64,000 bases of DNA, from positions 12,447,278-12,511,277 of the forward strand of contig NC_088297.1 of assembly GCF_032854445.1 (NCBI RefSeq), in the 5' to 3' direction. The position numbers and the translations under genes are program-made. The notes under the pieces were generated by a model. It was not told the DNA's origin. It saw only the letters and a list, made by a program, of their open reading frames with translations, and ran no database searches. Below are positions 4,946 through 51,950 of the stretch, piece by piece (position 1 is the first letter of the stretch; every line of letters starts with the position of its first letter). The DNA comes from Liolophura sinensis (Eukaryota; Mollusca; Polyplacophora; Chitonida; Chitonidae).

Positions 4946-4951
4946 TGTATA

Positions 4952-5387
4952 AGTAGTTGAGAATGTAGGTTTGGTGCGGCATTGAGGTGGCGGTTTTTGT
5001 GGTTTTGAGGTGGCGGGTGTTGATGCCCAGTTGCCCCGGCTGGGGCAGGCTGGGCAGGTTGGTGGTGACGTCACACCTGCCAGCCCTTCGGGCTGGCAGA
5101 TGTTACAGGTGTGACGTCACCCCTTCGCTGGGGAAGTTTGGTGGGTTTTTTCCACGCCGCGGGGCGTATGTGATGTGTGTAGTAGACTAGAGTATAGTAT
5201 AACAGTATAACCGTAGAGTATAGGGGTATAGGGGAAAAAAAGAGAAAAAAAAAAGAGGCAAAACGTCGGCTTGTAAAGTGGCGTGGGACAGCTCGAAAAG
5301 AGCTCCCTGGCGCCAAAACGGACCAATGGGTGAGCGGGATTTGCCCCAAAACGGCTCAATGGAGGGCCCGCAAAACGGACCTATCCG
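4952..5387 (+). repeat. Left terminal inverted repeat
   Basis: Matches the reverse complement of 51509-51944 at about 96% by eye, then diverges after 'gcaaaacggacc'. It contains two full CRE sites, a short hairpin, the palindromic block CCACGCCGCGGGGCGTA, a purine-rich stretch and CCAAT-type boxes. It is followed by a partial second copy at about 5410-5495. Confidence 0.85.
5060..5330 (+). promoter_or_regulatory. CRE, hairpin and CCAAT-box cluster in left TIR
   Basis: TGACGTCA occurs at 5066-5073 and 5112-5119. An 8-bp stem with loop TTC lies at 5079-5097 (GCCAGCCC / GGGCTGGC). A TATA-like 'agtatagtataacagtataa' and a CCAAT box (about 5322) follow. The combination resembles an RNA polymerase II promoter directed inward. 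Transcription is inference. Confidence 0.4.
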
Positions 5388-5404
5388 TTGGGGGAGACGG
5401 GGGA

Positions 5405-5495
5405 AAAATGAACCCAGCCCGAAGGGCTGGCAGGTGTGACGTCACCCCTTCGATGGGGAGTTTGGTGGGTTTTTTCCACGCCGCGGGGCGTATGT
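5405..5495 (+). repeat. Subterminal partial second copy of the TIR
   Basis: Repeats the hairpin (5414-5430, loop GAA instead of TTC), the CRE (5437-5444), 'ccccttcg.tgggg' and the CCACGCCGCGGGGCGTA block. The outermost ~100 bp and the CCAAT part are absent. Confidence 0.75.
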
Positions 5496-5989
5496 GTGTA
5501 TACTAGCGTTATGTATTGACGCACCGGCTGGCTGGCTGGCAACAATGTATACAATGTATTCAAGGCGCAACTGATCAAAACAAAAACCACGTGTCCAAAC
5601 AAAAACCACATGTCAAAACAAAGCACAGCTGACAACATTGTTTGCCTGACTGCGGGCCGGCTGGCGGGTAGGATCGCTCAGCGTGTCTTTGCAACACTTT
5701 CGCCCAGGAAGGCTCACTGCTGCAGGAAGAGGGTCGATGTTATGAACCGTAGAGCCTGTCGGTGGGATTTTTTTTTTGAGTGATCTGCCTGTCTGTCTAC
5801 CTGCTGGTTGTGGTAGGGATGGATGGATCGACACCACACCCAAACATGCATGTACACTGGAGACTATACTATACTATACTATACTATACTATACTATACT
5901 CTACTCTACTCTACTCTACTATATACTATATATAGGCGGTGTAGTGGAATAGAGTACAGTAGAGTATAGGGGAAAAAAAAAAAGAGAAA
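5496..5989. other. Left subterminal DNA with (ACTAT)n microsatellite
   Basis: No gene seen. An (ACTAT)n then (CTACT)n tract spans about 5863-5935. A purine-rich 'gtagagtataggggaaaaa' phrase like that of the TIR recurs at about 5958-5977. Confidence 0.6.
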
Positions 5990-6794
5990 AAACTTGGATC
6001 AGAAAATCTCGAAGCTTATAAGAAACTTGGAGGAGATCAATGTGATGGTATTTCGCACATATTTTCAGCATCTATATTTTCACCAACATCCACATATTTA
6101 AGCAAGATATGTAACAGCCATTTCTTAAACGGTTAAATTCAATTATTCTTTATCAACTAATCTTAACACACATATATACAAGACAACCAAATGACCATGA
6201 AGGAGAAAACAACTACCAGGTTATATTAAAAAATTCTTTTTTATTTTTCAATGTTTTATTCTTTTCTATCAAAAATCTAAAATACGAAAGGATATACCGA
6301 AACATACTAATATCTTCAACAGAAACTTGCAGTACTTGCTATGGGGAACCTAACAGAGCCCATACATGTAAATGATAAATACATGATATTGAAAATAAAT
6401 GATAAATAGGTGCACTAAACAGCTAATTTGACTTTGAAAAGACCGGTCAAAGCAGGTGTCAAAATGTCTGGCTCTATTAGTAGAGATGTGCTTTCCAAAA
6501 CATGAGGCAAAAATGGAATTAAATGCTCACAGCAAAGCCATCTAAAATACAACAATGGTTTTCCAACACAAACGTCAAATGTTCTGTATTTTCACTAACA
6601 TCCACATATACATATCTTAACACATATACAAAACAACCAAATGACCATCAAAGAGAAAACGACAACTACCAGGTTATATTAAGGAATTCTTTTTTTTTTT
6701 TTTTTTTTTAATGTTTTCTATCAAAAATCTGAAATATGAAAGGATATACCGAAACATACTAATATCTTCAACAGAAACTTGCAGTACTTGCTAA
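5990..6794. repeat. Outer end of left arm, tandemly repeated
   Basis: Reverse complement of right-arm sequence 46037-46890. A segment with 'accaggttatattaa' and 'gatataccgaaacatactaatatcttc' occurs twice (about 6110-6335 and 6590-6793), so a tandem duplication exists on this side too. The second copy is fused directly to the truncated dsRBD exon at 6795, removing the last two exons of the left gene. Confidence 0.7.
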
Positions 6795-6892
6795 AAGAGC
6801 TGTTGGGCACCACTTCCATCCCTTCCCATGGGAGAATGAAGCTGGTATACAGGACTTCCTCATCCATTCTTCTAGCAAAGGTCATCGAGCAC
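6795..6892 (-). pseudogene. Left gene dsRBD exon remnant with two stops
   Basis: Aligns with right exon 44869-44976. CAG at the sixth-to-eighth codon region is TAG here, and the TGG of the N-G-W-G motif is TGA. Homology ends at about 6795, where the arm-end repeat begins, so the donor and the next two exons are lost. Confidence 0.85.
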
Positions 6893-7402
6893 CTATAGTA
6901 AACATCGTTACATGCATTTACATTTACTCTTGATTTACTGAAGCCTCACTAGGGCAATCGGACTATAAATTAAAGGTAATTAGTAAAACAAAAATTCTTC
7001 CACAAAACAAAATCATGGTCAAAGGTTAAACGCAGAGCCTTGCATTATGACAACTTTCAATGATAACAAAACAGCCAATTTTTTTTTTAGCTATTAACAC
7101 ACCTGATTAACGAAATTTAATTCAAAACTCATTACATGTATAGGAAATATTAGATAAGAATTAGTTTCTAAGTATGTTACCTGTTACTTCAAAGTTTAAA
7201 CAAACACCCATCTTCAACGAAACTGAACTAACTCACCTTCTGGTTAATTGCACAATCGGTTCATGTCTTTTAGTACCGCGTAGGCAGATTATAGATTTTA
7301 AGACTGCGTAATCCTTTAAGCATGCTCCAGAATAAGTTGCAATGCGCAACTTTTTAATGGGATATGGGACTGGAAACCTTCTGCATTGACAACTATACAC
7401 AC

Positions 7403-7496
7403 CTCTGCTGGATGTTTCCTAAAGCCCCACCCCCTCATCATCCCTCGGCCTCGCACAGGGCTTCTGACGCCCATGGGACCTCGCTCTGCCAACGCC
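7403..7496 (-). CDS. Left gene Arg/Gly-rich exon
   Basis: 94 nt, acceptor TTAGCAG and donor GTGTGT, entering with one nucleotide of a split codon and ending in phase 0. It encodes [18 protein letters not shown] and then [13 protein letters not shown], an RG-rich linker like that before the dsRBD of A1CF. Confidence 0.65.
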
Positions 7497-8482
7497 CTGC
7501 TAACAGTACAAAAAGCACAAATATTCAAGCTATTTCATGGTAAAAATTATGTGACTGAGCCTTCTTAAAGTTTCTTCTTTCTGCTTTTCCTCCTGAGATG
7601 TTCACATAAAATCAAATATATTGAGCTATTAAGGTTTGGTTGATGAAACTTAATGCTTCTTTGTATACTTACATGTAAGAAGCTCATAAAACGTTTTTTT
7701 TTTTGAGGACATTGCATGGATAACACATAAATGCAACTTCTTTCACGTCAAATGACTCTATCAACCACAATGGCAAAACCACTAAATATGGTAGTGTACC
7801 TTTCCTACATGTATGCTGTTGAATGGAAAGCTACAGAGTGACAATTAAAGAATATAGGTCACAGGTGGTAGAAGTTCACATTAATTCTTGGCAAAAAGCA
7901 AGCCCCTACCATTCAATAAAATTGCCTGTTTTCAATAAAGCTATGCCTTGCACAGTCTTGCAAATATTTCTGCTCCATGTGAAGCACCTTCCAACTGAAA
8001 TCCGTCATTACCTCATTTTGGATTTCAGTTGCCAAAGTAGACTTGCCCATGTCATTTTTCTAGTTCTCACTTTGTACTCTGTATCCATTAGCATATCAGC
8101 AGGAGAGCTACAATACTGTACTTTGTAAAACCCACTTACATATGCTTATTTACAGTTACAGTTATTACAGACAAATCATAAGGTAAAATTTAATCTTAGG
8201 TTATCTAAGATTTCATCTTAGATGAACACAACTGAAATGATTTAAAACCAAAGACAAATATCCTGTTCCTGGTCTGAAGCACACAAATGACAGAGCATCT
8301 GACACTTCTGAGAACCCTGATATTAAACAGACAAACTGGACACACACGGTGGAATATGACAACCTATGCTCTTAATTCCGCAAATATTGTTCTAAGCTAA
8401 CCGATTTTTTATAAAAATTCCAAGAATACAACTCTATTCTGACGGCAAGATCATCTGCTGTGCTGGATTCTCATCTGTATTC

Positions 8483-8599
8483 TTATATTGGGTGAACAGA
8501 GTTGTGGATTTCAGGCCAAAATAGTTCTTTCCTTGCGGGTGGTGGAGACATCGGGTTGTAATACGATGGAGGCGAGTAACTAGGGTCATAGCCATAGCC
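8483..8599 (-). CDS. Left gene Tyr/Pro-rich exon
   Basis: After acceptor TTTTTCAG, reads [14 protein letters not shown] and runs open to a TAA at 8483-8485. It is the same as the right copy (43162-43278). A weak donor (TC|GTAT) after 35 nt would match the phase of the next exon. Otherwise this is an alternative terminal exon. Confidence 0.55.
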   Translation of the reverse strand, partial: GYGYDPSYSPPSYYNPMSPPPARKELFWPEIHNSVHPI

Positions 8600-8994
8600 C
8601 TGAAAAATTTGTCACAGTATCAAGTACACTTGTCATACAACCAAAGCATGCATAAAAGCAGATTCGCTCAAACGGCTGAACAGCTGACTTGCTTCCACTG
8701 TAGGTACTTGATCTATAAATTCATGTACAAATCCAGGTCTTACTCCAATTTCCTCCATCCATAAACCTGATCGTGGTGGAATAATGTGACAATTCTTAAA
8801 TATAGTATTATACACTGATTAAAAAGAAAAAAAAGTTATTATTAAAGATTTTTAGCATGTAGTTCTAATCATTTTTTAATGAACTGCCTGAAAGGCTAAG
8901 GCATTATACTACTACACACATGAGGCCTTCAATATTTCTACACACTGGAAAATTTCAACATCATAAGCCATCAGTGGCATTCCCTACCCTTGCA

Positions 8995-11900
8995 TACCAG
9001 ATCTGAAACCCCTATGCTTACATACCAGAAACTCTTATGCTGACATATGAGAACCCCTTACCCTAACACATGAGGAACTTTTACCCTGACATATGGGAAC
9101 CCCCCACCCAGGTATATGAGAACCCCCTACCTTAACATACGAGGAACTCTTACCCTGACATAACAGAGCCCACTACCTTAGCATACGAGGAACTCTTACC
9201 CTGACATAACAGAGCCCACTACCCTCACATATGAGGAACTCTTACCCTGACATATGAGAACCTCCTACCCAGACATATGAGAACCTCCTACCCAGATATA
9301 TGAGAACCCCCTACCTTAACATATGAGGAACTCTTACCCTGACATAACAGAGCCCACTACCTTAACATACGAAAAACTCTTACCCTGACATATGAGAGCC
9401 TCCTACCCAGATATATGAGAACCCCCTACCCTGACATATGAGGAACTCTTACCCTGACATATGAGAACCTCCTACCCAGATATATGAGAACCCCCTACCT
9501 TAACATATGAGCAACTCTTACCCTGACGTAACAGAGCCCACTACCTTAACATACGAGGAACTCTTACCCTGACATAACAGAGCCCACTACCCTGACATAT
9601 GAGAAACTCTTACCCGGACATATGAGAACCTCCTACCCAGATATATGAGAACCCCCTACCTTAACATATGAGGAACTCTTACCCTGACATAACAGAGCCC
9701 ACTACCTTAACATACGTGGAACTCTTACCCTGACATATGAGAGCCTCCTACCCAGATATATGAGAACCCCCTACCCTGACATATGAGGAACTCTTACCCT
9801 GACATATGAGAACCTCCTACCCAGATATATGAGAACCCCCTACCTTAACATATGAGCAACTCTTACCCTGACGTAACAGAGCCCACTACCTTAACATACG
9901 AGGAACTCTTACCCTGACATAACAGAGCCCACTACCCTGACATATGAGAAACTCTTACCCGGACATATGAGAACCTCCTACCCAGATATATGAGAACCCC
10001 CTACCTTAACATATGAGGAACTCTTACCCTGACATAACAGAGCCCACTACCTTAACATACGTGGAACTCTTACCCTGACATATGAGAGCCTCCTACCCAG
10101 ATATATGAGAACCCCCTACCCTGACATATGAGGAACTCTTACCCTGACATATGAGAACCTCCTACCCAGATATATGAGAACCCCCTACCTTAACATATGA
10201 GGAACTCTTACCCTGACATAACAGAGCCCACTACCTTAACATACGAGGAACTCTTAACCTGACATATGAGAGCCTCCTACCCAGATATATGAGAACCCCC
10301 TACCCTGACATATGAGGAACTCTTACCCTGACATATGAGAACCTCCTACCCAGATATATGAGAACCCCCTACAGATATATGAGAACCCCCTACCTTAACA
10401 TACGAGGAACTCTTACCCTGACATAACAGAACCCCCTATCTTACCAGATGAGGAACTCTTACCCTGACATATGATACTTCTTTCTTCTTCCAAGATTCCA
10501 ACGCTTCCTGGCCTCTGTTGTATGCTCTATCAACCTCACCCAAGTGGCAGTCCTGATTAGCCTGCAATAAAAGAAATTTCATCAGTAGTAAAAATCAATT
10601 ATTTACCTGATATAAATATATATAAATAATTTGGTTTTTATACGCAAAAGCTTACTTCACACATACCTGACATATGAGAACCTCCTACCCAGATATATGA
10701 GAACCTCCTACCCAGATATATGAGAACCCCCTACCTTAACATATGAGGAACTCTTACCTTGACGTAACAGAGCCCACTACCCTAACATACGAGGAACTCT
10801 TACCCTGACATAACAGAGCCCACTACCCTCACATATGAGGAACTCTTACCCTGACATATGAGAACCTCCTACCCAGATATATGAGAACCCCCTACAGATA
10901 TATGAGAACCCCCTACCTTAACATACGAGGAACTCTTACCCTGACATAACAGAACCCCCTATCCTACCACATGAGGAACTCTTACCCTGACATATGGTAC
11001 TTCTTTCTGCTTCCAAGATTCCAACGCTTCCTGGCCTCTGTTGTATGCTCTATCAACCTCACCCAAGTGGCAGTCCTGATTAGCCTGCAATAAAAGAAAT
11101 TTCATCAGTAGTAAAAATCAATTATTTACCTGATATAAACATATATAAATAATTTGGTTTTTATACGCAAAAGCTTACTTCACACATACCTGACATATGA
11201 GAACCTCCTACCTTAACATATGAGGAACTCTTACCCTGATGTAACAGAGCCCACTATCCTAACATACGAGGAACTCTTACCCTGACGTAACAGAGCCCAC
11301 TACCCTGACATATGAGGAACTCTTACCCTGACATATGAGAACCTCCTACCCAGATATATGAGAACCCCCTACCTTAACATATGAGGAACTCTTACCCTGA
11401 CATAACAGAGCCCACTATCCTAACATACGAGGAACTCTTACCCTGACATAACAGAGCCCACTACCCTCACATATGAGGAACTCTTACCCTGACATATGAG
11501 AACCTCCTACCCAGATATATGAGAATCCCCTACAGATATATGAGAATCCCCTACCTTAACATATGAGGAACTCTTACCCTGACATAACACAGCCCACTAC
11601 CTTAACATACGAGGAACTCTTACCCTGACATAACAGAACCCCCCTAGCCTACCATATGAGGAACTCTTACCCTGACATATGGTACTTCTTTCTGCTTCCA
11701 AGATTCCAACGCTTCCTGGTCTCTGTTGTATGCTCTATCAACCTCACCCAAGTGGCAGTCCTGATTAGCCTGCAATAAAAGAAATTTCATCAGTAGTAAA
11801 AATCAATTATTTACCTGATATAAATATATATAAATAATTTGGTTTTTATATGCAAAAGCTTACTTCACACATACCTGACATATGAGAACCTCCTACCCAG

Positions 11901-14900
11901 ATATATGAGAACCCCCTACCTTAACATATGAGGAACTCTTACCCTGACGTAACAGAGCCCACTACCTTAACATACGAGGAACTCTTACCCTGACATAACA
12001 GAGCCCACTACCCTGAAACATGAGGAACTCTTACCCTGACATATGAGAACCCCCTACCCAGATATATGAGAACCCCCTACTTTAACATATGAGGAACTGT
12101 TACCCTGGCATAACAGAGCCCACTACCTGAACATACGAGGAACTCTTACCCTGACATATGAGAGCCTCCTACCCAGATATATGAGAACCCCCTACCTTAA
12201 CATATGAGGAACTTTTACCCTGACATAACAGAGCCCACTACCTTAACATATGAGGAACTCTTACCCTGACATATGAGAGCCTCCTACCCAGATATATGAG
12301 AACCCCCTACCCTGACATATGAGGAACTTTTACCCTGACATATGAGAACCTCCTACCCAGATATATGAGAACCCCCTACAGATATATGAGAACTCCCTAC
12401 CTTAACATACGAGGAACTCTTACCCTGACATAACAGAACCCCCTATCCTACCACATGAGGAACTCTTACCCTGACATATGGTACTTCTTTCTGCTTCCAA
12501 GATTCCAACGCTTCCTGGCCTCTGTTGTATGCTCTATCAACCTCACCCAAGTGGATGTCCTGATTAGCCTGCAATAAAAGAAATTTCATCAGTAGTAAAA
12601 ATCAATTATTTACCTGATATAAATATATATAAAAAATTTGGTTTTTATATGCAAAAGCTTACTTCACACATACCTGACATATGAGAACCTCCTACCCAGA
12701 TACATGAGAACCCCCTACCTTAACATATGAGGAACTCTTACCCTGACGTAACAGAGCCCACTATCCTAACATACGAGGAACTCTTACCCTGACATAACAG
12801 AGCCCACTACCCTCACATATGAGGAACTCTTACCCTGACATATGAGAACCTCCTACCCAGATATATGAGAACCCCCTACAGATATATGAGAACTCCCTAC
12901 CTTAACATACGAGGAACTCTTACCCTGACATAACAGAACCCCCTATCCTACCACATGAGGAACTCTTACCCTGACATATGGTACTTCTTTCTGCTTCCAA
13001 GATTCCATCGCTTCCCGGCCTCTGTTGTATGCTCTATCAACCTCACCCAAGTGGTAGTCCTGATTAGCCTGCGATAAAAGAAATTTCATCAGTAGTAAAA
13101 ATCAATTATTTACCTGATATAGATATATATAAATAATTTGGTTTTTATATGCAAAAGCTTACTTCACACATACCTGACATATGAGAACCTCCTACCTTAA
13201 CATATGAGGAACTCTTACCCTGACATAACAGAGCCCACTATCCTAACATATGAGGAACTCTTACCCTGACATAACAGAGCCCACTACCCTGACATATGAG
13301 GAACTCTTACTCTGACATATGAGAACCTCCTACTCAGATATATGAGAACCCCCTACAGATATATGAGAACCCCCTACCTTAACATACGAGGAACTCTTAC
13401 CCTGACATAACAGAACCCCCTATCCTACCACATGAGGAACTCTTACCCTGACATATGATACTTCTTTCTTCTTCCAAGATTCCAACGCTTCCTGGCCTCT
13501 GTTGTATGCTCTATCAACCTCACCCAAGTGGCAGTCCTGATTAGCCTGCAATAAAAGAAATTTCATCAGTAGTAAAAATCAATTATTTACCTGATATAAA
13601 TATATATATAAATAATTTGGTTTTTATATGCAAAAGCTTACTTCACACATACCTGACATATGAGAACCTCTTACCCAGATATATGAGAACCCCCTACCTT
13701 AACATATGAGGAACTCTTACCCTGACGTAACAGAGTCCACTACCCTAACATGCGAGGAACTCTTACCCTGACATAACAGAGCCCACTACCCTGACATACG
13801 AGGAACTCTTACCCTGACATAACAGAACCCCCTATCCTACCACATGAGGAACTCTTACCCTGACATATGGTACTTCTTTCTGCTTCCAAGATTCCAACGC
13901 TTCCTGGCCTCTATTGTATGCTCTATCAACCTCACTCAAGTGGCAGTCCTGATTAGCCTGCAATAAAAGAAATTTCATCAGTAGTAAAAATCAATTATTT
14001 ACCTGATATAAATATATATAAATAATTTGGTTTTTATATGCAAAAGCTTACTTCACACATACCTGACATATGAGGAACTCCTACCCAGATATATGAGAAC
14101 CCCCTACCTTAACATATGAGGAACTCTTACCCTGACGTAACAGAGCCCACTACCCTAACATGCGAGGAACTCTTAACCTGACATAACAGAGCCCACAACC
14201 CTGACATACGAGGAACTCTTACCCTGACATAACAGAACCCCCTATCCTACCACATGAGGAACTCTTACCCTGACATATGGTACTTCTTTCTGCTTCCAAG
14301 ATTCCAACGCTTCCTGGCCTCTATTGTATGCTCTATCAACCTCACCCAAGTGGCAGTCCTGATTAGCCTGCAATAAAAGAACTTTCATCAGTAGTAAAAA
14401 TCAATTATTTACCTGATATAAATATATATAAATAATTTGGTTTTTATATGCAAAAGCTTACTTCACACATACCTGACATATGAGAACCTCCTACCCAGAT
14501 ATATGAGAACCCCCTACAGATATATGAGAACTCCCTACCTGAACATACGAGGAACTCTTACCCTGACATATGAGAACCTCCAACCCAGATATATGAGAAC
14601 CCCCTACCTTAACATATGAGGAACTCTTACCCTGAAGTAACAGAGCCCACTATCCTAACATACGAGGAACTCTTACCCTGACATAACAGAGCCCACTACC
14701 CTGATATATGAGGAACTCTTACCCTGACATATGAGAACCTCCTACCCAGATATATGAGAACCCCCTACCTTAACATATGAGGAACTCTTACCCTGACATA
14801 ACAGAGCCCACTACCTTAACATACGAGGAACTCTTACCCTGACATAACAGAGCCCACTACCCTGACATATGAGGAACTCTTACCCTGACATATGAGAACC

Positions 14901-17032: not shown

Positions 17033-17393
17033 CTGCAATAAAGAATTTTCATCAGTATTAAAATTAAATTTTTTACCTGATATAAATATATATAAATAAT
17101 TTGGTTTTTATATGCAAAGCTTACTTCACACATACATGACAGATGAGTTTACAATGGTGAAAGAAAGCTGATGGGGGAAAAATGTGGACAGGTCCCGGTT
17201 TACGACCAAATACCTTCCACAAACTCTCAATTTGAAAACATTTGAACTCTTCCAACTTAACACAGTTTACTTCACATACTGTGTTACAGACAAACTTAAC
17301 CTATGGGAGAGGATGATCGCTGGGCTGTCCTGAATTACACATTTGAGATGACTTTCACGATGTGGCAGCAACATTGACCAAATGATTTCTTAC

Positions 17394-37095: not shown

Positions 37096-37100
37096 AAGGA

Positions 37101-40166: not shown

Positions 40167-43100
40167 GTAAGTCATGTAATTTCCACTATAGAAGCTTTTT
40201 TGGTTGTCTCTTCGTTGCAAATTAAAACACATTTAATTGCCAATGTAGACAGCAAAATATCGGTTGGTTAGTTGTAAAATTCATGAGTAGGTATCACAGT
40301 CCAAACAAATTTGACCTTTATGTAAGCCGTTATTTGAAAAGTTATAATTGAACTAAAGTTTTTTGTATCAAAGGGGTATTTTGTGTGGGTGGATATGTGT
40401 AAAATGTTGCGTAACTTTTTGAAATTTCTTATCGTCTGCACTTTCATTTTCCGTCATGAGAAGGTGGTGTGTGCGCGCGCGCGCGTGCAGCATTTGTTGC
40501 ATTTTCTGTCATGAGAGGGTGGTGTGTGCGCGCGCGCGCAACATTCCTTGCAACAAGTGATTTCTTTTGTATGGGAGGCTGCGGTAATAATTAATATAGT
40601 TAACTTATGGCCTAAAAGCACTGATGCGTCGTCATCTTGTACATTAATATTGTGCATATTTGTATGACTGGAATAATATTTATGTTGTGCATATTTGTAC
40701 TACAGAGGAGAGTTTTGCATGTGAGGAACCTTATGTCGACAACTACAGAAGACAAAATTATAAAGCTGTGCAGTCAAGTTGTGGGAAGGGACGATGCTGT
40801 GGAAAGAGTAGAGAAGATAAAAGATTATGCATTCATTCAGTTTAAAGACAGAGATGATGCTATCATGGCCATGACTAAACTTAATGGTGAGAAAAATTAT
40901 TTATTTTGGAGTTGTGTTGATTGGTTTTGGATAAATACAAATGCATTAACGGAAGTATATTTTTTCTATCGGTAGGCGAATGTAGTTTTTGTATGCATTT
41001 ATAGAGTGTGATATATTTCCATTCGGATAGTTCTGTTTCTGATAAGTAAAAGTTCATTTTTGTTTGTCAGTCGCATGTGGCACATTATTATGTTTTAACT
41101 AGTTTTTCACTTGATTGATGTTTACAGAAAATTACATGATAGAATATCCACCAACATCTAAGGGAGAGTATTTGGAAAACATGCTAACTCAAGTAATTAA
41201 GATGAAACAATGAATAACTGACACATCGCTTGCCTATAGGATGTTTGATACTCCAACTACGTACAGGAAATGGCTCACAATTATGGGACAGACTTACATA
41301 TATTTACAGAAGAGCACATACAGTATAAATTCACACTTCAAAACATAAGGTGTGGGCATTCTCTAGAATATTTGTTCGGATAAATTTCTGTATAAATTGG
41401 ATTTTATGTTAGCTTATTATTAACTTAATATCACCCCTCATTCAACATGGATGGGAAGGTCTGGCAGCAACCTGTGAATGGTTGTGGGTTTCCATTAGGC
41501 TCTGCCTGGTTTCCTCATGCTATAATGCTGGTCACTGTCGTATAAGTGAAATATTCTTGAGTACAGCGTAAAAACGCCAATCAATAAATCATTCAGCATG
41601 AAAAGAAGCTGTTGAACATTGAATGATCAAATGTTTAAAAGAGGGAAGTTGTTTCAACAGTTACATGTAATAGGCTGAATATTGAACCCAAGCTCCCAGG
41701 ACCATTTTGCCAGGAATTTTTTGAGAAAATAAGAAGTTTTCTTTGGGAGAAACTCTAGGTAGACTGTATCTGGAACACTTTTTAACTGATGTGTAGCATT
41801 TGTACTACGTCCTCATTCTTTCAAGAAATAAAATTAAAGGAAGATCAAGGTGGGAAGGCATTATATAATAAGTCATATATATATTTCTCTCTAGGAATGA
41901 ATGTTGAAGGTGCTTGCCTTGAGGCTGCATGGGCGAGAAGAAGAAATCAGGTAAGAAATCATTTGGTCAATGTTGCTGCCACATTGTGAAAATCGTCTCA
42001 AATGTGTAATTCAGGACAGCCCAGCGATCATCCTCTCCCATAGGTTAAGTTTGTCTGCAACATAGTATGTGGAGTAAACTGTGTTAAGTTGGAAGAGTTC
42101 AAATGTTTTCAAATTGAGAGTTTGTGGAAGGTATTTGGTCGGTAACCGGGACCTGTCCACATTTTTCCCCCATCAGCTTTCTTTTAACTCATCTGTCATG
42201 TATGTGTGAAGTAAGCTTTGCATATAAAAACCAAATTATTTATATATATTTATATCAGGTAAATAATTGAATTTTACTACTGATGAAAATTCTTTATTAC
42301 AGGCTAATCAGGACTGGCACTTGGGTGAGGTTGATAGGGCATACAACAGAGACCAGGAAGCGTTGGAATCTTGGAAGCAGAAAGAAGTATCATATGTCAG
42401 GGTAAGAGTTCCTCATGTGGTAGGCTAGGGGGTTCTGTTATGTCAGGGTAAGAGTTCATCGTATGTTAAGGTAGTGGGCTCTGTTATGTCAGGGTAAGAG
42501 TTCCTCATATGTTAAGGTAGGAGGTTCTCGTATATCTGGGTAGTGGGCTCTGTTATGTCAGGGTAAGAGTTCCTCGTATGTTAAGGTAGTGGGCTCTGTT
42601 ATGTCAGGGTAACAGTTCCTCGTATGTTAAGGTAGGGGGTTCTCATATACCTGGGTAGGGGGTTCCCATATGTCGGGGTAAAAGTTCCTCATGTGTTAGG
42701 GTAAGGGGTTCTCATATGTCAGCATAAGAGTTTCTGGTATGTAAGCATAGGGGTTTCAGATCTGGTATGCAAGGGTAGGGAATGCCACTGATGGCTTATG
42801 ATGTTGAAATTTTCCAGTGTGTAGAAATATTGAAGGCCTCATGTGTGTAGTAGTATAATGCCTTAGCCTTTCAGGCAGTTGATTAAAAAATGATTAGAAC
42901 TACATGCTAAAAATCTTTAATAATAACTTTTTTTCTTTTTAATCAGTGTATAATACTATATTTAAGAATTGTCACATTATTCCACCACGATCAGGTTTAT
43001 GGATGGAGGAAATTGGAGTAAGACCTGGATTTGTACATGAATTTATAGATCAAGTACCTACAGTGGAAGCAAGTCAGCTGTTCAGCCGTTTGAGCGAATC

Positions 43101-45979
43101 TGCTTTTATGCATGCTTTGGTTGTATGACAAGTGTACTTGATACTGTGACAAATTTTTCAGGGCTATGGCTATGACCCTAGTTACTCGCCTCCATCGTAT
43201 TACAACCCGATGTCTCCACCACCCGCAAGGAAAGAACTATTTTGGCCTGAAATCCACAACTCTGTTCACCCAATATAAGAATACAGATGAGAATCCAGCA
43301 CAGCAGATGATCTTGCAGTCAGAATAGAGTTGTATTCTTGGAATTTTTTATAAAAAATCGGTTAGCTTAGAACAATATTTGCGGAATTAAGAGCATAGGT
43401 TGTCATATTCCACCGTGTGTGTCCAGTTTGTCTGTTTAATATCAGGGTTCTCAGAAGTGTCAGATGCTCTGTCATTTGTGTGCTTCAGACCAGGAACAGG
43501 ATATTTGTCTTTGGTTTTAAATCATTTCAGTTGTGATTATCTAAGATGAAATCTTAGATAACCTAAGATTAAATTTTACCTTATGATTTGTCTGTAATAA
43601 CTGTAACTGTAAATAAGCATATGTAAGTGGGTTTTACAAAGTACAGTATTGTAGCTCTCCTGCTGATATGCTAATGGGTACAGAGTACAGAGTGAGAACT
43701 AGAAAAATGACATGGGCAAGTCTACTTTGGCAACTGAAATCCAAAATGAGGTAATGACGGATTTCAGTTGGAAGGTGCTTCACATGGAGCAGAAATATTT
43801 GCAAGACTGTGCAAGGCATAGCTTTATTGAAAACAGGCGATTTTATTGAATGGTAGGGGCTTGCTTTTTGCCAAGAATTAATGTGAACTTCGTACCACCT
43901 GTGACCTATATTCTTTAATTGTCACTCTGTAGCTTTCCATTCAACAGCATACATGTAGGAAAGGTACACTACCATATTTAGTGGTTTTACCATTGTGGTT
44001 GATAGAGTCATTTGACGTGAAAGAAGTTGCATTTATGTGTTATCCATGCAATGTCCTCAAAAAAAAAAAACGTTTTATGGGCTTCTTACATGTAAGTATA
44101 CAAAGAAGCATTAAGTTTCATCAACCGGACCTGAATAGCTCAATATATTTGATTTTATGTGAACATCTCAGGAGGAAAAGCAGGAAGAAGAAACTTTAAG
44201 AAGGCTCAGTCACATAATTTTTATCGTGAAATAGCTTGAATATTTGTGCTTTTTGTACTGTTAGTAGGGGGTTGGCAGAGCGAGGTCCCATGGGCATCAG
44301 AAGCCCTGTGCGAGGCCGAGGGATGATGAGGGGGTGGGGCTTTAGGAAACATCCAGCAGAGGTGTGTATCGTTGTCAATGCGGAAGGTTTCCAGTCCCAT
44401 ATCCCATTAAAAAGTTGCGCATTGCAACTTATTCTGGAGCATGCTTAAAGGATTACGCAGTCTTAAAATCTATAATCTGCCTACGCCGTACTAAAAGACA
44501 TAACCGATTGTCCAATTAACCAGAAGGTGAGTTAGTTCAGTTTCGTTGAAGATGGGTGTTTGTTTAAACTTTGAAGTAGCAGGTAACATACTTAGAAACT
44601 AATTCTTATCTAATATTTCCTATACATGTAATGAGTTTTGAATTAAATTTCGTTAATCAGGTGTGTTAATAGCTAAAAAAAAAAAATTGGCTGTTTTGTT
44701 ATCATTGAAAGTTGTCATAATGCAAGGCTCTGTGTTTAACCTTTGACCATGATTTTGTTTTGTGGAAGAATTTTTTGTTTTACTAATTACCTTTAATTTA
44801 TAGCCCGATTGCCCTAGTGAGGCTTCAGTAAATCAAGAGTGTCATGCATGTAACAATGTTCACTATAGGTGCTCGATGACCTTTGCCAGAAGAATGGATG
44901 GGGAAGTCCTGTATACCAGCTTCATTCTCCCATGGGAAGGGATGGAAGTGGTGCCCAACAGATCTTTTTGTACAAGGTACTACCATAGGTTTCAACAAAA
45001 TGTTGATAAGAAACTTGTTTGAAGAGATAAGAATCAAGTTCTTTTGCTGGAATGTAACTTTTTTTATTATTTATTTATACAATTAATCATGTCCATGTGT
45101 ACCAGAAAGAATAAGAAGTAAATTATGTGATAAAAATAATTGATCTGAAGTAAATCGAAAAAAGAATGTCGTGGTTGTGATTTATACATGTGTAAGTGTC
45201 ATTTAGAAGTTGATGTTAGGCATTTACATTGTTAATCTATGGTAAAGTACATTTGTCTTTCAGATCACCACACCAGCTCTCGGTACTCAGTTTCCAAATC
45301 GTAACCCATTTACCCCAAATAAACTGTGTTCTACTGTTGAGGGGGCAAAGGTTTTTGCAGCAGAGTACACTTTGGTGCAGTTAGGTGTGCCTCTTGAAGG
45401 TAAAGTTAGTGTCCAGATAAAAAAGGAAAGACAAACAAATGCTTCACCGCCCAAGCTCTACTTTTTTTCACTTACGATACATGATTGAATAAGTGGCCAT
45501 TGTATGCTTTGATGTCTTCTTTCTTTCCTGAACCAGCTTTGCTTCTTGATTTAAGAAAGTAAGAGCTATCTCATTTTACATGTTTGTAACAGTATATGAA
45601 AATTATAAAAAAACTTCTTTACTGGATAATATGTAATAAGACATGCTGCAAAAAACTTAATTGCTGAAAATTACTATTCATAGCTGAGCTGTTTGCCGTT
45701 ATGTAAGCACTTGTGACATGCATCAGGTATTCTGTGTCTTAGCAACTCGTTTGAAGAATGAATGGTTAAATACTCACATACATACATGCATGCGGTTACC
45801 CAAGTATATTTTGAATGAATATTAGCCAGGAAAGTAACTATTTGCATAACTAGAATTGTCAGAGTTTATTGTTTTGTGCTTCAGCCCTAGAGTACATTAG
45901 CCTACCATGTCCTTACACCCAGCCGAGCTATGCCAACCACCCCGACCCACCTGTGGAACGCTTCCAACAGATCGTGTGA
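39765..45979 (+). CDS. A1CF: A1CF/RBM46/RBM47-like RNA-binding protein gene, right copy, RRM2 missing
   Basis: Nine exons supported by splice sites and phase: 39765-40166, 40706-40886, 41895-41950, 42303-42401, 43162-43196 (donor uncertain), 44268-44361, 44869-44976, 45264-45399 and 45885-45979 (TGA). Order of domains: leader with [15 protein letters not shown]1, RRM3, charged linker, Tyr/Pro stretch, Arg/Gly stretch, dsRNA-binding domain, short tail. The dsRBD ([15 protein letters not shown] ... [11 protein letters not shown]) matches the A1CF type best. Family members are nuclear RNA-binding cofactors; vertebrate A1CF partners APOBEC1. RRM2 is absent with an in-frame join between RRM1 and RRM3, so about 75-80 residues of the family protein are missing. 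It is the only complete copy here, lies inside the 47-kb element, and shares its 5' region with the left copy. It could be a functional paralogue or a recent pseudogene. Confidence 0.75.
40706..40886 (+). CDS. Right gene exon 2: RRM3
   Basis: Acceptor TACTACAG, donor G|GTGAGA. RNP2-like VLHVRNLM and RNP1-like KDYAFIQF, with VERVEKI between. 13 nucleotide differences from the left copy, 11 of them amino-acid changing by my count. Confidence 0.85.
41128..41192 (+). CDS. Possible alternative exon in the RRM3 intron
   Basis: 65 nt between GTTTACAG and CAA|GTAATT. It is open in the phase left by exon 2 ([18 protein letters not shown]) and looks identical in the left arm (about 18160-18224). Its end phase does not fit exon 3, so inclusion would end the protein early. 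It may be chance. Confidence 0.25.
41435..41590 (+). mobile_element. SINE fragment in right-arm intron
   Basis: Plus-strand 3' part ending 'gtataagtgaaatattcttg' and 'agtacagcgtaaaaacgcca'. Mate of 17750-17905. Confidence 0.8.
41895..41950 (+). CDS. Right gene exon 3: end of RRM3
   Basis: 56 nt, acceptor TCTCTCTAG, donor GTAAGA. Completes RRM3 ([19 protein letters not shown], first residue shared with exon 2). Phase 1 in, phase 0 out. Confidence 0.75.
42303..42401 (+). CDS. Right gene exon 4: the single 99-nt exon
   Basis: Phase 0-0, acceptor TATTACAG, donor AGG|GTAAGAG. Encodes [16 protein letters not shown] and then [17 protein letters not shown]. The exon's 3' border is the first unit of the minisatellite that follows. 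This is the unamplified state of the left array. Confidence 0.8.
42390..42765. repeat. 23-bp minisatellite, right arm, about 16 units
   Basis: Units of type TATGTCAGGGTAAGAGTTCC and TATGTTAAGGTAGTGGGCTC repeat every 23 bp from the exon donor to about 42765, decaying toward the 3' end. About twenty times shorter than in the left arm. Confidence 0.85.
43162..43278 (+). CDS. Right gene Tyr/Pro-rich exon
   Basis: Acceptor [30 protein letters not shown] and on to TAA at 43276-43278. A weak donor after 43196 (TC|GTAT) has the right phase for the next exon. Without it this is an alternative 3' end lacking the dsRBD. Confidence 0.55.
   Translation, partial: GYGYDPSYSPPSYYNPMSPPPARKELFWPEIHNSVHPI
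44268..44361 (+). CDS. Right gene Arg/Gly-rich exon
   Basis: Encodes [18 protein letters not shown] and [13 protein letters not shown] before donor GTGTGT. The acceptor is TTAGTAG where the left copy has TTAGCAG, a change at the -3 position to a weaker but usable TAG. Confidence 0.6.
44869..44976 (+). CDS. Right gene dsRBD exon, first half
   Basis: 36 codons, acceptor CACTATAG, donor [29 protein letters not shown] then [15 protein letters not shown]: helix 1 and first strands of the A1CF-type dsRNA-binding domain. No stops, unlike the left copy. Confidence 0.85.
45264..45399 (+). CDS. Right gene dsRBD exon, second half
   Basis: Acceptor CTTTCAG, donor G|GTAAAG, phase 0 to 1. [20 protein letters not shown], then [16 protein letters not shown], the C-terminal helix. 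Missing from the left arm. Confidence 0.85.
45885..45979 (+). CDS. Right gene terminal exon
   Basis: Acceptor TTGTGCTTCAG; the split codon joins correctly to the previous exon. [20 protein letters not shown] ... FQQIV then TGA. The unrelated arm-end repeat starts about 30 nt after the stop, so the native 3'UTR is cut off. No AATAAA in the retained part, though 'aataaaacattg' occurs at about 46246. Confidence 0.75.
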
Positions 45980-46019
45980 AAAGCCATGGATGACCTACTG
46001 GTAGTTGTCGTTTTCTCTT

Positions 46020-46890
46020 CGATGGTCATTTGACAATCTCTACTAATAGAGCCAGACATTTTGACACCTGCTTTGACCGTTCTTTTCAAAGTCAAATTAG
46101 TTGTTCAGTGCACCCATTTATCATTTATTTTCAATATCATTTTTATCATTTACACGTATGGGCTCTGTTAGGTTCCCCATAGCAAGTACTGCAAGTTTAT
46201 GTTTCGGTATATCCTTTCGTATTTCAGATTTTTGATAGAAAAGAATAAAACATTGAAAAATGAATTTTTTAATATAACCTGGTAGTTGTCGTTTTCTCCT
46301 TCATGGTCATTTGGTTGTCTTGTGTATATGTGTGTTAAGATTAGTGGATAAAGAATAATTGAATTTAACCGTTTAAGAAATGGCTGTTACATATCTTTCT
46401 AAAATATGTGGATGTTGGTGAAAATACAGAACATTTGACGTTTGTGTTGGAAAATCATTGTTGTATTTTGGATGGCTTTGCTGTGAGCATTTAATTCCAT
46501 TTTTGCCTCATGTTTTGGAAAGCACATCTCTACTAATAGAGCCAGACATTTTGACACCTGCTTTGACCGGTCTTTTCAAAGTCAAATTAGCTGTTCAGTG
46601 CACCCATTTATCATTTATTTTCAATATCATGTATTTATCATTTACACGTATGGGCTCTGTTAGGTTCCCCATAGCAAGTACTGCAAGTTTATGTTTCGGT
46701 ATATCCTTTCGTATTTCAGATTTTTGATAGAAAAGAATAAAACATTGAAAAATGAATTTTTTAATATAACCTGGTAGTTGTCGTTTTCTCCTTCATGGTC
46801 ATTTGGTTGTCTTGTGTATATGTGTGTTAAGATTAGTGGATAAAGAATAATTGAATTTAACCGTTTAAGAAATGGCTGTTACATATCTTG
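46020..46890. repeat. ~490-bp tandem duplication at outer end of right arm
   Basis: 46037-46385 repeats as 46527-46875 (both start 'tctctactaatagagccaga'). Counterpart of 5990-6794. Relative to the left arm, a 17-bp piece (ctgttgaagatattagt) is missing from both right copies. Palindromic homology between arms stops at about 46890. Confidence 0.8.
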
Positions 46891-47127
46891 TTAAAAGTCA
46901 TACGTTGTTACCAGGCCGTCTAATGTATGACGATGTAGCAGGCACGGCAAGTCGGGTCAGTGTCCGGCTATTACGGCTGCCGGCCCGCCGCCCCCCGCTA
47001 GGCGTTTTTAACTTTTTAACGTATGTACCACCGCGAATGATAAAACACATGAAAAAAAATTGTACAATTAAAAAAAAAAAAATGGGAAGACTGTGTCTGG
47101 TGTGGGGCTTCTTTTCTTTCTTTTTTT
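46891..47127. other. GC-rich junction, no gene
   Basis: Contains a GC-rich stretch (ggctgccggcccgccgcccc near 46974-46993), then A- and T-runs. Separates the right arm from the polymerase relic. Confidence 0.4.
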
Positions 47128-48397
47128 TTAGTGCTTAGATTGAGAAAGTACTATTTCGGGAAGAGTTGGTTGGCCCTGAAAAGGGCCGTCGGAAGTGTCA
47201 CAAGAGCACGGAGCCGGGTGTGTAGAGTATCCATAGCACCGTTCTACAGATCTAAATAGGTGGTGCTCACCCCGTCGGGGAGCACTTTTCGCTTCCCGTA
47301 AAAGTATGTGAATGCGTCTTTGTGTTGGGTATACGAGTACATCGTATTGCCCCGCATCCGCATTCCCCGATTCACACCACTCGCGCTTTGGTGATTGCGC
47401 AACACAGAGAGGTACACGGCCTTGTCCACACCTCGTGCGCTCACACCTTTGCAGGAGAGTTTGTCTTTGGCGTTGGATTCCCCCCCGTAACAACAATAAG
47501 TCTTGGAACACAAACTGACGATGGCATCACCAGTCCACTCGACTTTGAAAAGCCCCGGTGTGCGCTTATCGTTGTCGTAATGGTCGCGACGGGGTAAACC
47601 ACGCATCCCGCTCGGTCTTGTACACGGCTCGCAGCTCGGGTTTGACGAGGGATTCCCAGTCTGGGTCAGACCAAGCCATGTAAGCAGAGTCTGTGTCCAT
47701 CTCACAGTACTGCCAATCCGCCTTGTCGAAAAAACGAGCCATGAAATCGTAATAAAATTCCAGCATGCGGAGTTTGATGTGGCAGTTTGTGGACGAAAAA
47801 CATCACGTTGGTGATGAGGTCGACGGTCCATTTCGTATTGGGGCGTTGTTTTTGGGCCCAGGTAAGCGGGTCTTGGGTGAGGAGACGCTGGGTGTGGAAT
47901 CCTCGCAGGTCAGCCCGACTCGCCACGCGGTACGGTGCGTCGAGTACTCGGGTGTTGTTGGTGCTCGGGTAATAATACCGCACCTGTCCCGTCTCTTTGT
48001 GGCGGAGGATATATCCAAAACTGTAATTGATAGTGAAAGTAGTCGGCTGGTCTTCGTAAATCTCGTCTACATAGGCTGGGATAGCACCGAGATCACTCAG
48101 TCGGTAATTATAGCAGTCTTGAATTGGTTTGTGGCGATGGAAATGAGTTCGGATCGATCGCCAATGCCGCTGGTACAACTCCCGTACGTCACTGTCACCG
48201 CTCGGCAAGACAGCCTTGTGAGGCTGTACTGGGTCGGGTTCGAACTGGCTCGTTGGACTTTGTTTTTTGTTTTCTTCTTTCAGCGAGGCAGCCCCCGCTA
48301 AACGCACTTGAGCTTTACTCGTGCTGGGTTTGTTGTCGTCGGTGGTGGTGGTGGTGGTGATGGTGGTGGTGGTAGATGAAACAGGTCTCTGTAACAT
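47128..48397 (-). pseudogene. Family-B DNA polymerase relic (Polinton/adintovirus-like)
   Basis: Three minus-strand frames. 48397-47760 encodes an N-terminal region with low-complexity Thr/Asp start and a block including INYSFGYILRHKETG. 47766-47566 begins MLEFYYDFMARFF and has YCEMDTDSAYMA, whose D-T-D-S is motif C of family-B polymerases. A third frame down to about 47244 has PGLFKVEW, KTYCCYG and GVSTTYLDL, the C-terminal end of this polymerase group. The exonuclease and most of the palm between the first two blocks are missing, and at least two frame breaks separate the rest, so it is dead. It supports the class of the surrounding element, though it could also be an unrelated insertion. 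Confidence 0.75.
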
Positions 48398-48545
48398 AGA
48401 AGGGTGTAGACGTTATATCCCAGGTAAACCCAAGACATACTCTATATACATACTATTGTACATATGTGCATATGTATCTTCTCCGTCTTCTTCTCCTCCA
48501 ACGTCTTCTTCTTCTTCTTCTTGTCTGTATCAGCCTCGAAATCTT
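48330..48545. repeat. (GGT)n and (TCT)n simple repeats
   Basis: A GGTGGTGGT tract at 48340-48372, which encodes the Thr-run of the relic on the other strand, and a TTCTTCTTC tract at 48485-48523. Confidence 0.8.
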
Positions 48546-49330
48546 CTCGATCCATCGTCGCTTGTTTGCTCGCTCGCTCGCTCGGTGTCTTCGGGTGAAG
48601 TGATCTGCTATTTTATTTTTTTATTTACTGGTTTTAGGGCCACTTTCCTGGCGGACATCGTGGCCCATCAAATCAGTGTTTTATTTATTTATTTTTTTTT
48701 AACACATGAATATTTTGGTTACATAACAGCAGTGCGTTGGCACACTATTTACATATGTACATGAGTCAATCGGTGGGATCAACCTCTTTGTGGTAGCATA
48801 TTACGGCCTATTGTATAGGTTCAAATGCTGCCATGGTCATTCAACAGAAAGGGGATAAATAGTAAGCCATTTACAGAGACTAACGTTATCTTTACATTAG
48901 AAATACATAGATCTGCATTATAGAATTACAATGAGTTGCCTATACAGAAATTTACACAGAGAGAAAACAACAGTAGTGCCTTTATTTATTGGTTAACAGT
49001 TTTGTTCTCTTGCTTCCTCCTCAGTGGCGTGGAGTTAAGGAGCTCCCGCCACTTATACCGGACGCCGTCCAGGAAAAACCAGCGTACTGGAAACCTGTGC
49101 CTGTAACAGGTGCGACAAGTATAAATGAGGAGCAAGGATGTCAGGCCTCATCCACTTAGTCGAAGCAAGAGATAGTCCTATTGTCATGATGTCTTTCATG
49201 TTTCTGGTCTTCGTTTCCTGGTTGTTAAGTTTCTTTGGTCCCATGGGTCTTCTTATTGTTTTCCATGTCTTCTTTTTTAATTGATTTCCTTCTCTATTTC
49301 CAATTTTTATTTGTGGCCTCCCATGGCGGT
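48546..49330 (-). other. Degenerate repeat-derived sequence
   Basis: No complete gene. A minus-strand frame at 49053-49244 (starts MGPKKLNNQETKTRN) lies downstream of the SGNH remnant and is probably part of the same degraded element. Confidence 0.35.
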
Positions 49331-49359
49331 GCAGACAGCACGTTTCATAGACCGGTAGA

Positions 49360-49745
49360 ACAGTTCCTGGCCTAGAGTGTTTAGGTGCACTCCGTCGTTG
49401 GTTAGAATTTGCTTTGTGGTCGGATCAGTCCCCGGTGTCTCCAGCAGGTGGCCAATTGGTTGTTTGTCAGCTTCTTGTTAATTTCATGGATTTTTTTTTA
49501 TTATTAATGTGGACCGAAATTCGCCGAGTTACCTGACGGTAAAGAAGCTCGCTGATGTAGATCCTTGGAATTTGGAATTTCGATTTAAGTGCACCAACAT
49601 AGTCTAAAATATCAGCGCAAATTGCTGCTGCTGATTTGTGAGAGTCCGCATCGTTTCCCCCCAATGTGGAGGATAACTAGGTCAGGTTTTGTCTCCTGAA
49701 GGAGACTTTCCAATCTTCCAGAGCATCTAAGTGTCCCAACTCTAG
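49360..49745 (-). pseudogene. SGNH/GDSL hydrolase-like remnant
   Basis: Minus strand: PDLVILHIGG, then across a G6 run in another frame GGNDADSHKSAAAICADIL and IPRIYISELLYRQVTRR. G-x-N-D is block III of the SGNH hydrolase fold. A later frame has DGVHLNTLG, the block V Asp/His. The serine block I was not found. Such domains accompany some LINE ORF1s in aquatic animals, so it is probably transposon-derived. Confidence 0.55.
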
Positions 49746-49882
49746 CTCCCCCAATGCCAAAAAAAAAAAAAAAAACCGAATGTCATGGCCTGTTCCAAAG
49801 TCGATTCTAGAGTTTGGGATCGAATTTCGAAGGATACTATTCTCCAGCCTATGAACGTAACTGCTGCCGATAATAAAGATTT

Positions 49883-49886
<4 letters not shown>

Positions 49887-49916
<30 letters not shown>

Positions 49917-51438
49917 CCCTGTGAAAACAAATAGAGAAAACAAATATACAAGATAGTTGTATTTTTGATTTGCGAAGGGGTTTTGTTTATGAGATAATGT
50001 ATATCTTAAGCAAGAAGATATTTGATAAAACAGATATTTAGGAGCAAATTAGTGGTATACCTACCAATCAGAAATTGATAGAGGGTCTGCCCTCGTATGA
50101 TATATACACATTTGTAAATAAATAGAAAATAAATATCAAATAATAAGAATAGATAAATAACAACAAATAAGAGGGCAGATTAGTTAATGGAGAAATATTA
50201 TTAATTACTACAGTTAATCAACTTTTGTGGTTACATTGTTTTCGTGTGCTATGTTTTTGCAGATTGGTTTCATGGACGTTTTATCGGCCCTCAAGATCAA
50301 GGTATCGCCGATATAGTTGGGGATAAAGTTGTAGGGAGGAATTATGTATCTGTGGAATAAACGGCCCTCAAAATCAAGGTATCGCCGTTGTTAGTATATG
50401 TGTTTGGTAATTACGGAGAATGCACCGTTTTTAATCAGAGAAGGTGACGTATTGTTGACTAGAGCAGAAACGGCCCTCAGAATCAAGGTATCGCCGCTGT
50501 TGGTCAATTGTGTTTTATCAGATTCGGCTTTCGTAGCCCGTCGATTTGATGTATTCTTTTAGTAAGGAGAATATTTGTGCTCTCAGGTGTGGTTTGGGGT
50601 TAAGGATAGTCTGAAGGTCAAGTTCACATTTGTAGATTTGCAGGCATTCTGCCAATCGTCTTCGTTCTTTACTGTGTTTAATACATTGTAGCAAATAGTG
50701 CTCTATGGTTTCATCATGCTCTTGACAGGCTGGGCAAGTTGGTGAAGAATTTTGGATTATAGTTGCTAGATGTGCTTTGAGCCCTGTTTTCCCTACTCTC
50801 AGGCGTGATATGTTTTTGTCATCTTGGTTATTCAATAATTGGAACGAATTTAATTTTGTAATCGTTCCGTTTAATATTTTATAGTGCCACCGTCCGCGGG
50901 ATTCTTTATCCCATTCCTCTTTCCACTGATTGTTAATTTGGGTATTGATCAATGTATATATTTCATTTTGGCTCAGGGGGACGTCTATATCTTGTTCATA
51001 TTTTCGTAGGCTCGATTTTGCTGCCTGATCTGCAATTTCATTTCCTCGAATATTAACGTGCGCTGGAACCCATGCTAGAGTCAGGTCGGTTTTTTGTTTC
51101 TGTATTTTGTCAGTTAGCGAGATTATTTCTTGTAGGAGGTCTGGTCTACTCTCAGATTTGGAGTTTTGGATGGAAATTATTCCGCTGAGGGAGTCGTTTA
51201 GTATGGCTACTCGGTTTGGTTTGTTCTCAAGAATCCATTGTAGTGCCATTGTAATTGCAACTAATTCACTAGTATAGACGGAGAGGTGGTTGGGTAGTTT
51301 ATAGTTTTTAACTATGTTTAGATCTGGTATTGCAAATGATGATCCAGTGTGACCCTGCACATTTTTAGATCCGTCAGTATATATTTTTAGATGACCGTTG
51401 TAGTGTTCGTGGAACACCGGTCGCTGTCTTCACCGGCT
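49887..51438 (-). mobile_element. 5'-truncated LINE with RNase H, inserted near right TIR
   Basis: Minus strand. A long T-run from 49887 on the plus strand is the poly-A tail. A likely target duplication TTTATCC lies at 49880-49886 and 51439-51445. ORF 50518-51417 carries RNase H: YTDGSK, SELVAI, LNDSLSG and WVPAHVNIRGNEIAD, then the knuckle CPACQEHDETIEHYLLQC. The RT is absent because of 5' truncation. The 3'UTR holds a 26-bp motif three times. Confidence 0.8.
50285..50496 (-). repeat. 26-bp motif repeated three times in the LINE 3'UTR
   Basis: Plus-strand CGGCCCTCA-R-R-ATCAAGG-TATCGCCG at 50285-50310, 50362-50387 and 50471-50496, spaced 77 and 109 bp in otherwise unrelated sequence. The ends are complementary (CGGC/GCCG), so each can form a short-stem loop. 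Conservation of only this block suggests a function such as reverse-transcriptase recognition. That role is inference. Confidence 0.75.
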
Positions 51439-51469
51439 TTTATCCTATCCACGCGGAACTCAACCGCAC

Positions 51470-51580
51470 GCTGATTGGTTCGTTTTTTCTTACGTAACCC
51501 CTTCTCGCACGCCGATTGGTCCGTTTTGCGGGCCCTCCATTGGGCCGTTTTGGGGCAAATCCGGCTCACCCATTGGTCTG
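51470..51580 (-). promoter_or_regulatory. ATTGG (inverted CCAAT) cluster beside right TIR
   Basis: ATTGG at 51474, 51515, 51539 and 51572, spaced 24-41 bp, each in a 'gRttggtYcgtttt'-type context. On the minus strand these are CCAAT boxes, the NF-Y site. With the CRE at 51823-51830 this resembles an inward-facing promoter. Confidence 0.4.
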
Positions 51581-51944
51581 TTTTGGCGCCAGGGAGCTCT
51601 TTTCGAGCTGTCCCACGCCACTTTACAAGCCGACGTTTTGCCTCTTTTTTCTCTTTTTTTCCCCTATACCCCTATACTCTACGGTTATACTGCTATACTA
51701 TACTCTAGTCTACTACACACATCACATACGCCCCGCGGCGTGGAAAAAACCCACCAAACTTCCCCAGCGAAGGGGTGACGTCCACACCTGCAAGGTCTGC
51801 CAGCCCTTCGGGCTTGCAGGTGTGACGTCACCACCAACCTGCCCAGCCTGCCCCAGCCGGGGCAACTGGGCATCAACACCCGCCACCTCAAAACCACAAA
51901 AACCGCCACCTCAATGCCGCACCAAACGTACATTCTCAACTACT
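51509..51944 (-). repeat. Right terminal inverted repeat
   Basis: Reverse complement of 4952-5387 with about 15 differences, ending CAACTACT at 51944. The hairpin (51799-51817) has one stem mismatch and, read from the element end, loop GAA where the left TIR has TTC. Confidence 0.85.
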
Positions 51945-51950
51945 TGTATA

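Follow-up and report, generated by a model that had tools for sequence, protein, structure and literature searches.

In the genome of the chiton Liolophura sinensis, a 47-kb block on pseudomolecule 11 has the two ends of a Polinton (Maverick) transposon on the outside and an inverted pair of host DNA segments on the inside, and each host segment carries an intron-containing copy of an A1CF/RBM46-like RNA-binding protein gene. The block lies in a stretch of 64,000 nucleotides (NC_088297.1, positions 12,447,278 to 12,511,277), which is called the window below. We conclude that one Polinton very probably inserted here at the hexamer TGTATA, and we lean slightly toward the view that the host DNA was already aboard. 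The assembly was published under the name Liolophura japonica (PMC11068029), and the species assignment was corrected in PMC12441733; the protein records carry the name Liolophura sinensis.

The outer boundaries of the block are formed by four features, in which the terminal inverted repeats are abbreviated as TIRs:

4946-4951, left target-site duplication, TGTATA, exact
4952-5387, forward strand, left Polinton TIR, starting with AGTAGTTG
51509-51944, reverse strand, right Polinton TIR, ending with CAACTACT
51945-51950, right target-site duplication, TGTATA, exact

Both hexamers directly abut a TIR, the left one at the start of AGTAGTTG at 4952 and the right one at the end of CAACTACT at 51944. 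The TIRs are inverted, 436 bp long and terminate in AGTAGT and ACTACT. A first-pass annotation, made from the letters alone, had proposed a block bounded by matching TIRs and an exact 6-bp duplication, and this proposal is borne out. The two TIRs are 95.9% identical over 435 columns in blastn, and a global alignment excluding the duplication hexamers revealed 14 mismatches in 432 aligned columns (3.24%). Three of the 14 appear to stem from the loop of a hairpin (5087-5089 and 51807-51809), which reads TTC in one repeat and GAA in the other in repeat orientation, and which was probably inverted in one event. Within the window the outer TIRs are each other's closest match and are correctly oriented; on its forward strand CAACTACT occurs once and AGTAGTTG four times. 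A match of two hexamers by chance is expected once in 3,322 from the composition of the window, and 177 of 400,000 random position pairs had equal hexamers (about 1 in 2,260), so that the earlier estimate of 1 in 4,096 was slightly too small. The annotation had also pointed to a stand-alone miniature inverted-repeat transposable element of about 0.5 kb at each end as the finding that would speak against it. Such elements are ruled out within the window, where the inner edge of neither TIR has an inverted end with a duplication: there is no ACTACT, nor AGTAGT at the right end. TGTATA is found at 5497, 110 bp inside the inner edge of the left TIR, and is absent from 51380-51515 on the inner side of the right TIR.

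Next to the right end lies a relic of a Polinton gene:

47247-48412, reverse strand, DNA polymerase B of a Polinton, broken into three open pieces (47705-48412, 47569-47802 and 47247-47579) and directed from the right end toward the interior

For the C-terminal piece 180 relatives were found, and among the best 120 of them at least four are named DNA-directed DNA polymerase (Patiria, Holothuria); fifteen relatives chosen from these 120 were aligned with it at 50-66% identity. The middle piece contains CEMDTDSAY, which by eye is the consensus of the aligned relatives of the C-terminal piece. The remaining piece we take to be the N-terminus of the polymerase, and its position beside the other two supports this. 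No relative was found in viral contigs (5 of 8 scans) or in the phage collection. The GC content of the stretches assigned to the Polinton is 46-55%. In vertebrate Mavericks the commonest termini are (AGT)2//(ACT)2, with (AG)3//(CT)3 as another accepted form, the polymerase module generally reads toward the center, and in intact copies the duplication is 6 bp long and the TIRs span 46-1,447 bp with a mean of 402 (PMC8097293). The block shows the same hallmarks, namely AGTAGT/ACTACT termini, the 6-bp TGTATA, a 436-bp TIR and an inward-reading polymerase relic. These agreements are the reason why we consider the insertion of one Polinton very probable, and they put the Polinton-like assignment of the first-pass annotation on firmer ground than it had claimed.

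A large part of the interior is host DNA, in which the following features are recognized:

6071-20948, left host arm, an inverted copy of the right arm; an array of exon plus minisatellite at about 8930-17150 makes it longer
31074-31994, continuation of the left arm, pairing with 37571-38496
37571-46895, right host arm
6797-19530, reverse strand, A1CF/RBM46-like gene copy of the left arm (product annotated as P0126), with RRM1 at 19132-19530 and RRM3 at 18456-18638
39765-45976, forward strand, A1CF/RBM46-like gene copy of the right arm (product annotated as P0122), with exons for RRM1, RRM3 and the dsRBD as far as the stop

The arms are collinear inverted copies, in which 6071-20948 together with 31074-31994 pairs with 37571-46895. 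The array has no partner in this pairing, the left arm is without about 1 kb that the right arm has near 44969-45990, and the longest exact match between the arms is 389 bp. The GC content of the arms is 35-38% outside the array and 42% in it, which sets them apart from the stretches assigned to the Polinton. Both outer edges of this palindrome lie close to Polinton sequence: the left edge is 78 bp from weak or 574 bp from firm TIR-like sequence, and the right edge is 351 bp from the polymerase relic. Inward of the TIRs, the two sides show no homology to each other beyond short TIR-like repeats. In the array of the left arm (10463-17035), a 34-residue exon (ANQD...) is present in 12 copies with intron sequence of a 23-bp minisatellite; the right arm has one copy (42300-42401), and the number varies among other proteins of the family.

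The annotated products P0122 and P0126 match exons of the right and left arm, respectively, and both are recorded on pseudomolecule 11. A host-derived gene is present between the two ends of one insertion. The right-arm gene has the domain set of A1CF, RBM46 and RBM47, that is RRM1, RRM3 and a DND1-type dsRBD; RRM2, the middle RRM, was not found in the right arm, nor in the protein of either arm. In the left arm the first dsRBD exon has two stops, and no match was found there for the exons that follow it. After the exon at 43159 (8602 in the left arm), where other proteins of the family splice on, neither arm has a GT donor, and the donor has apparently been lost; from such a loss, short products that lack the dsRBD would be predicted. 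Between the arms, the nonsynonymous and synonymous divergences (dN and dS) over six exons are 0.055 and 0.048 (38 and 9 differences), with no sign of purifying selection. Because dN is about equal to dS, the donor is lost and the left arm has stops, the two gene copies look like decaying passengers.

These copies belong to a larger family. Among the best 120 of 332 matches, at least 12 entries of Liolophura are relatives, located on pseudomolecules 2, 4, 7, 9 and 11 and on a 37-kb record; at least 11 of them, on pseudomolecules 4, 7, 9 and 11 and on the 37-kb record, are derived copies. Ten of the 11 derived proteins have two RRM_1 stretches and lack the middle RRM, whereas P0128 and P0131 each have three. 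A tree built from 16 N-terminal stretches places P0131, which is encoded on pseudomolecule 2, at the base of the chiton family and apart from the other 11 (support 100/99). The gene for P0131 is the likely parent of the derived copies. In this tree P0123 of pseudomolecule 9, and not the left-arm gene, is grouped with the right-arm gene (support 100/97).

A matched duplication proves only that two ends were inserted jointly, not that host DNA was inside at that time. Therefore, the statement of the first-pass annotation that the whole block moved as one giant element with cargo holds for the two ends, and for the host DNA it stands as a possibility. Further traces of Polinton sequence in the interior bear on this question:

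5388-6070, forward strand, left subterminal stretch with a firm TIR-like repeat at 5431-5496 (97%), then weak low-complexity similarity to about 5992, the final 78 bp being without assignment
20711-20818, forward strand, left arm, TIR-like stretch (20711-20753, 84%) beside a second A1CF-like last-exon fragment (20771-20818)
38622-38729, reverse strand, right-arm counterpart, with an A1CF-like fragment of the last exon beside a TIR-like stretch (38687-38729, 86%)
36938-37335, forward strand, third, diverged Polinton TIR-like end (AGTAGTTG...), then a C2H2 zinc-finger open reading frame (ORF) at 37155-37334

Three blocks of inserted elements, including long interspersed nuclear elements (LINEs), also lie inside the TIRs:

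20949-31073, block of about 10 kb with hAT and LINE-type (endonuclease) ORFs, splitting the left arm
33481-36937, reverse strand, LINE (reverse transcriptase, RNase H) that directly adjoins the third TIR-like end, with its left edge set by eye
49881-51404, reverse strand, LINE with RNase H beside the right TIR, edges by eye

The explanation that we favor, as a somewhat probable one, is that a defective Polinton carrying an inverted host pair inserted at TGTATA, was mobilized in trans and was later swollen by inserts. Such a Polinton would have lost its core genes and would have had an inverted pair of host segments in their place, each segment bringing an intron-containing A1CF/RBM46-like gene copy, while its two ends and a portion of the Polinton's polymerase would have been retained. 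The proteins of an intact Polinton may have copied and integrated it in trans, and the LINEs, the hAT element and the expansion of the minisatellite may later have enlarged the block to 47 kb. The presence of the host DNA at insertion is favored because the palindrome ends near Polinton sequence on both sides and because a TIR-like sequence next to an A1CF-like fragment appears to be an older neighborhood. The 43-bp TIR-like stretches of the arms score 51.8 and 47.3 bits, and the best of 60 dinucleotide shuffles scored 31.9. Since this neighborhood is common to both arms, it either predates the duplication of the arms or was copied between them. Also in favor, the outer TIRs are much more similar to each other (95.9%) than to the third TIR-like end (82-93% in short pieces). 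Size was also considered. Intact vertebrate Mavericks are 12.7-24.6 kb long and have eight core genes or, in Xenopus tropicalis, seven (PMC8097293); the block of 46,993 bp is above this range, which describes intact copies and not relics. By coordinate arithmetic, it is 31,887 bp net of the three insert blocks and about 24 kb when the array expansion is also subtracted, and we counted this value near the upper limit in favor of the cargo reading.

Several observations weigh against this explanation. The N-terminal polymerase piece has a sole relative, P0001, which is unnamed (65%). Pfam, which was run on 10 of the 19 ORFs of at least 150 aa, on selected ORFs and on the forward strand of the right arm, revealed no family in any of the polymerase pieces, and NCBIfam revealed none in the two pieces scanned; in the same partial Pfam scan no integrase, ATPase, protease or capsid was recognized. 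The third TIR-like end in the center, which is preceded by CACATC and not by TGTATA, shows that more than one Polinton was involved. As for timing, the divergence of arms that were duplicated before the insertion is expected to equal or exceed that of the TIRs. Over all arms 198 of 7,158 sites differ (2.77%), and this similarity to the TIRs (p = 0.55) fits both dating from one event. Outside 17.1-20.1 kb, however, the arms differ at 73 of 4,194 sites (1.74%), which is below the 3.24% of the TIRs (p = 0.039; p = 0.13 with the hairpin loop counted as one event, and p = 0.25 without CpG sites). Taken literally, the difference would mean that this portion of the palindrome could postdate the insertion; alternatively, gene conversion could have homogenized it.

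The same divergence is an argument for the main rival, a realistic possibility that we rate below an even chance: an ordinary Polinton inserted at TGTATA first, its interior was deleted, host DNA entered later and the palindrome formed in place, so that the block never moved as a whole. Insertion could have brought in the host DNA, as could ectopic recombination or gene conversion in which a different Polinton or A1CF-like copy took part. The third Polinton-like end inside the block agrees with such a history. The arms are mosaic, with 4.22% divergence at 17.1-20.1 kb and 1.74% elsewhere (p = 4.7e-10), and together with the grouping of the right-arm gene with P0123 this indicates that exchange with other copies happens. 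The mosaic arms and this grouping also make gene conversion likely, and gene conversion between the arms would itself lower their divergence; thus, the clock cannot decide when the host DNA entered. On the other hand, the position of both palindrome edges near Polinton sequence is easier to explain if the inverted pair came as a unit.

It is very improbable that the Polinton fragments on the two sides of the host palindrome are unrelated and that their hexamers match by chance. Several Polinton pieces do occur at the locus, and TGTATA is found 43 times on the forward strand of the window, but a match at the exact position has the low chance given above, and the outer TIRs, closest to each other and properly oriented, have a polymerase beside one of them only. 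Least credible is an artificial palindrome in which the assembly joined two haplotypes or a folded read, as might be feared from HiFi reads of 8.3 kb on average, 14x coverage and a heterozygosity of about 1.24%, near the divergence of parts of the arms (PMC11068029), because the window has zero N, exact matches between the arms do not exceed 389 bp and large insertions distinguish them, inverted matches of at least 150 bp are lacking between the outer flanks, and both gene copies are separately annotated on the same pseudomolecule 11 record.

A further point in favor of the cargo reading is the dispersal of the gene copies over several pseudomolecules, which implies that some mover of this DNA exists. 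Tentatively, and with considerable doubt, Polintons may have spread the RRM2-less, intron-containing A1CF family over pseudomolecules 4, 7, 9 and 11, in which case this locus would be one of several cargo insertions.

Some other features of the window were observed, the first of which is in the center of the block:

31995-33480, reverse strand, GC-rich stretch of possible Polinton origin, without a family match; edges drawn by eye

It contains an ORF at 32746-33435 on the reverse strand, possibly a Polinton accessory gene, whose best Pfam match has an E value of only 0.23. Fragmented ORFs lie at 49310-49880, with the polymerase relic on one side and the right LINE on the other, and neither of the two scanned has a Pfam family. 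In the right arm, a short frame at 38235-38300 before a splice donor, MVDPRIKPMIIKAGVVTR, is reminiscent of the first exon of tubulin cofactor A, a resemblance unconfirmed by any tool. The right flank (53159-62043) has several dispersed and inverted copies of about 200 bp that resemble short interspersed nuclear elements, and by eye similar sequence occurs near 37571 in the arms. At 1-850 and 3359-4161 the left flank has a 145-bp tandem array with an inverted relative about 2.5 kb off.

The literature searches turned up no account of this locus or of a link between Polintons and A1CF in a chiton, and the one paper that they gave for Polintons together with chitons concerns bivalve transposons. 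Other systems offer partial parallels. Adenovirus-cell symmetric recombinants (SYREC) have the same viral terminal segment at both ends. The chiton locus resembles them in that palindromic host DNA is bounded by the ends of a protein-primed DNA virus, but it differs in the lack of extended homology inside its TIRs; a SYREC-like symmetric model was dropped because of this difference. The ends of Pack-MULEs and Helitrons differ from those described here. Both are, like the block, DNA elements carrying host sequence; according to a review, most Pack-MULEs measure 1-2 kb, and Helitrons contain a full-length host gene only in very exceptional cases (PMC6431247). The block shares with vertebrate Mavericks the (AGT)2//(ACT)2 ends, the perfect 6-bp duplication, a TIR of about 400 bp and the inward polymerase, and differs from them in that only a broken polymerase was recognized and the interior contains host DNA and nested elements (PMC8097293).

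The closest precedent is found in nematodes, in which Mavericks reportedly acquired nematode genes as cargo (PMC10680173), including wosp and krma (Widen et al. 2023, as described in PMC10680173 and cited in PMC11623301). The annotation had regarded a Polinton-like element with a host gene as cargo as new, and this precedent weakens the novelty, which partly remains. In both cases members of an animal gene family lie between Maverick ends, but the chiton host gene contains introns and occurs as two mutually inverted copies. Should the host DNA have come later, the locus would caution against taking matched duplications around a Polinton as proof of cargo. If it was aboard, a virus-like transposon with capsid ancestry would have moved a whole intron-containing gene in a mollusc, Maverick gene cargo would extend beyond nematodes, and the expansion of the A1CF-like family would have a testable cause. 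Furthermore, if Polintons spread this family, the locus would be a mollusc counterpart of the nematode cargo Mavericks, with the whole intron-containing gene carried as an inverted pair.

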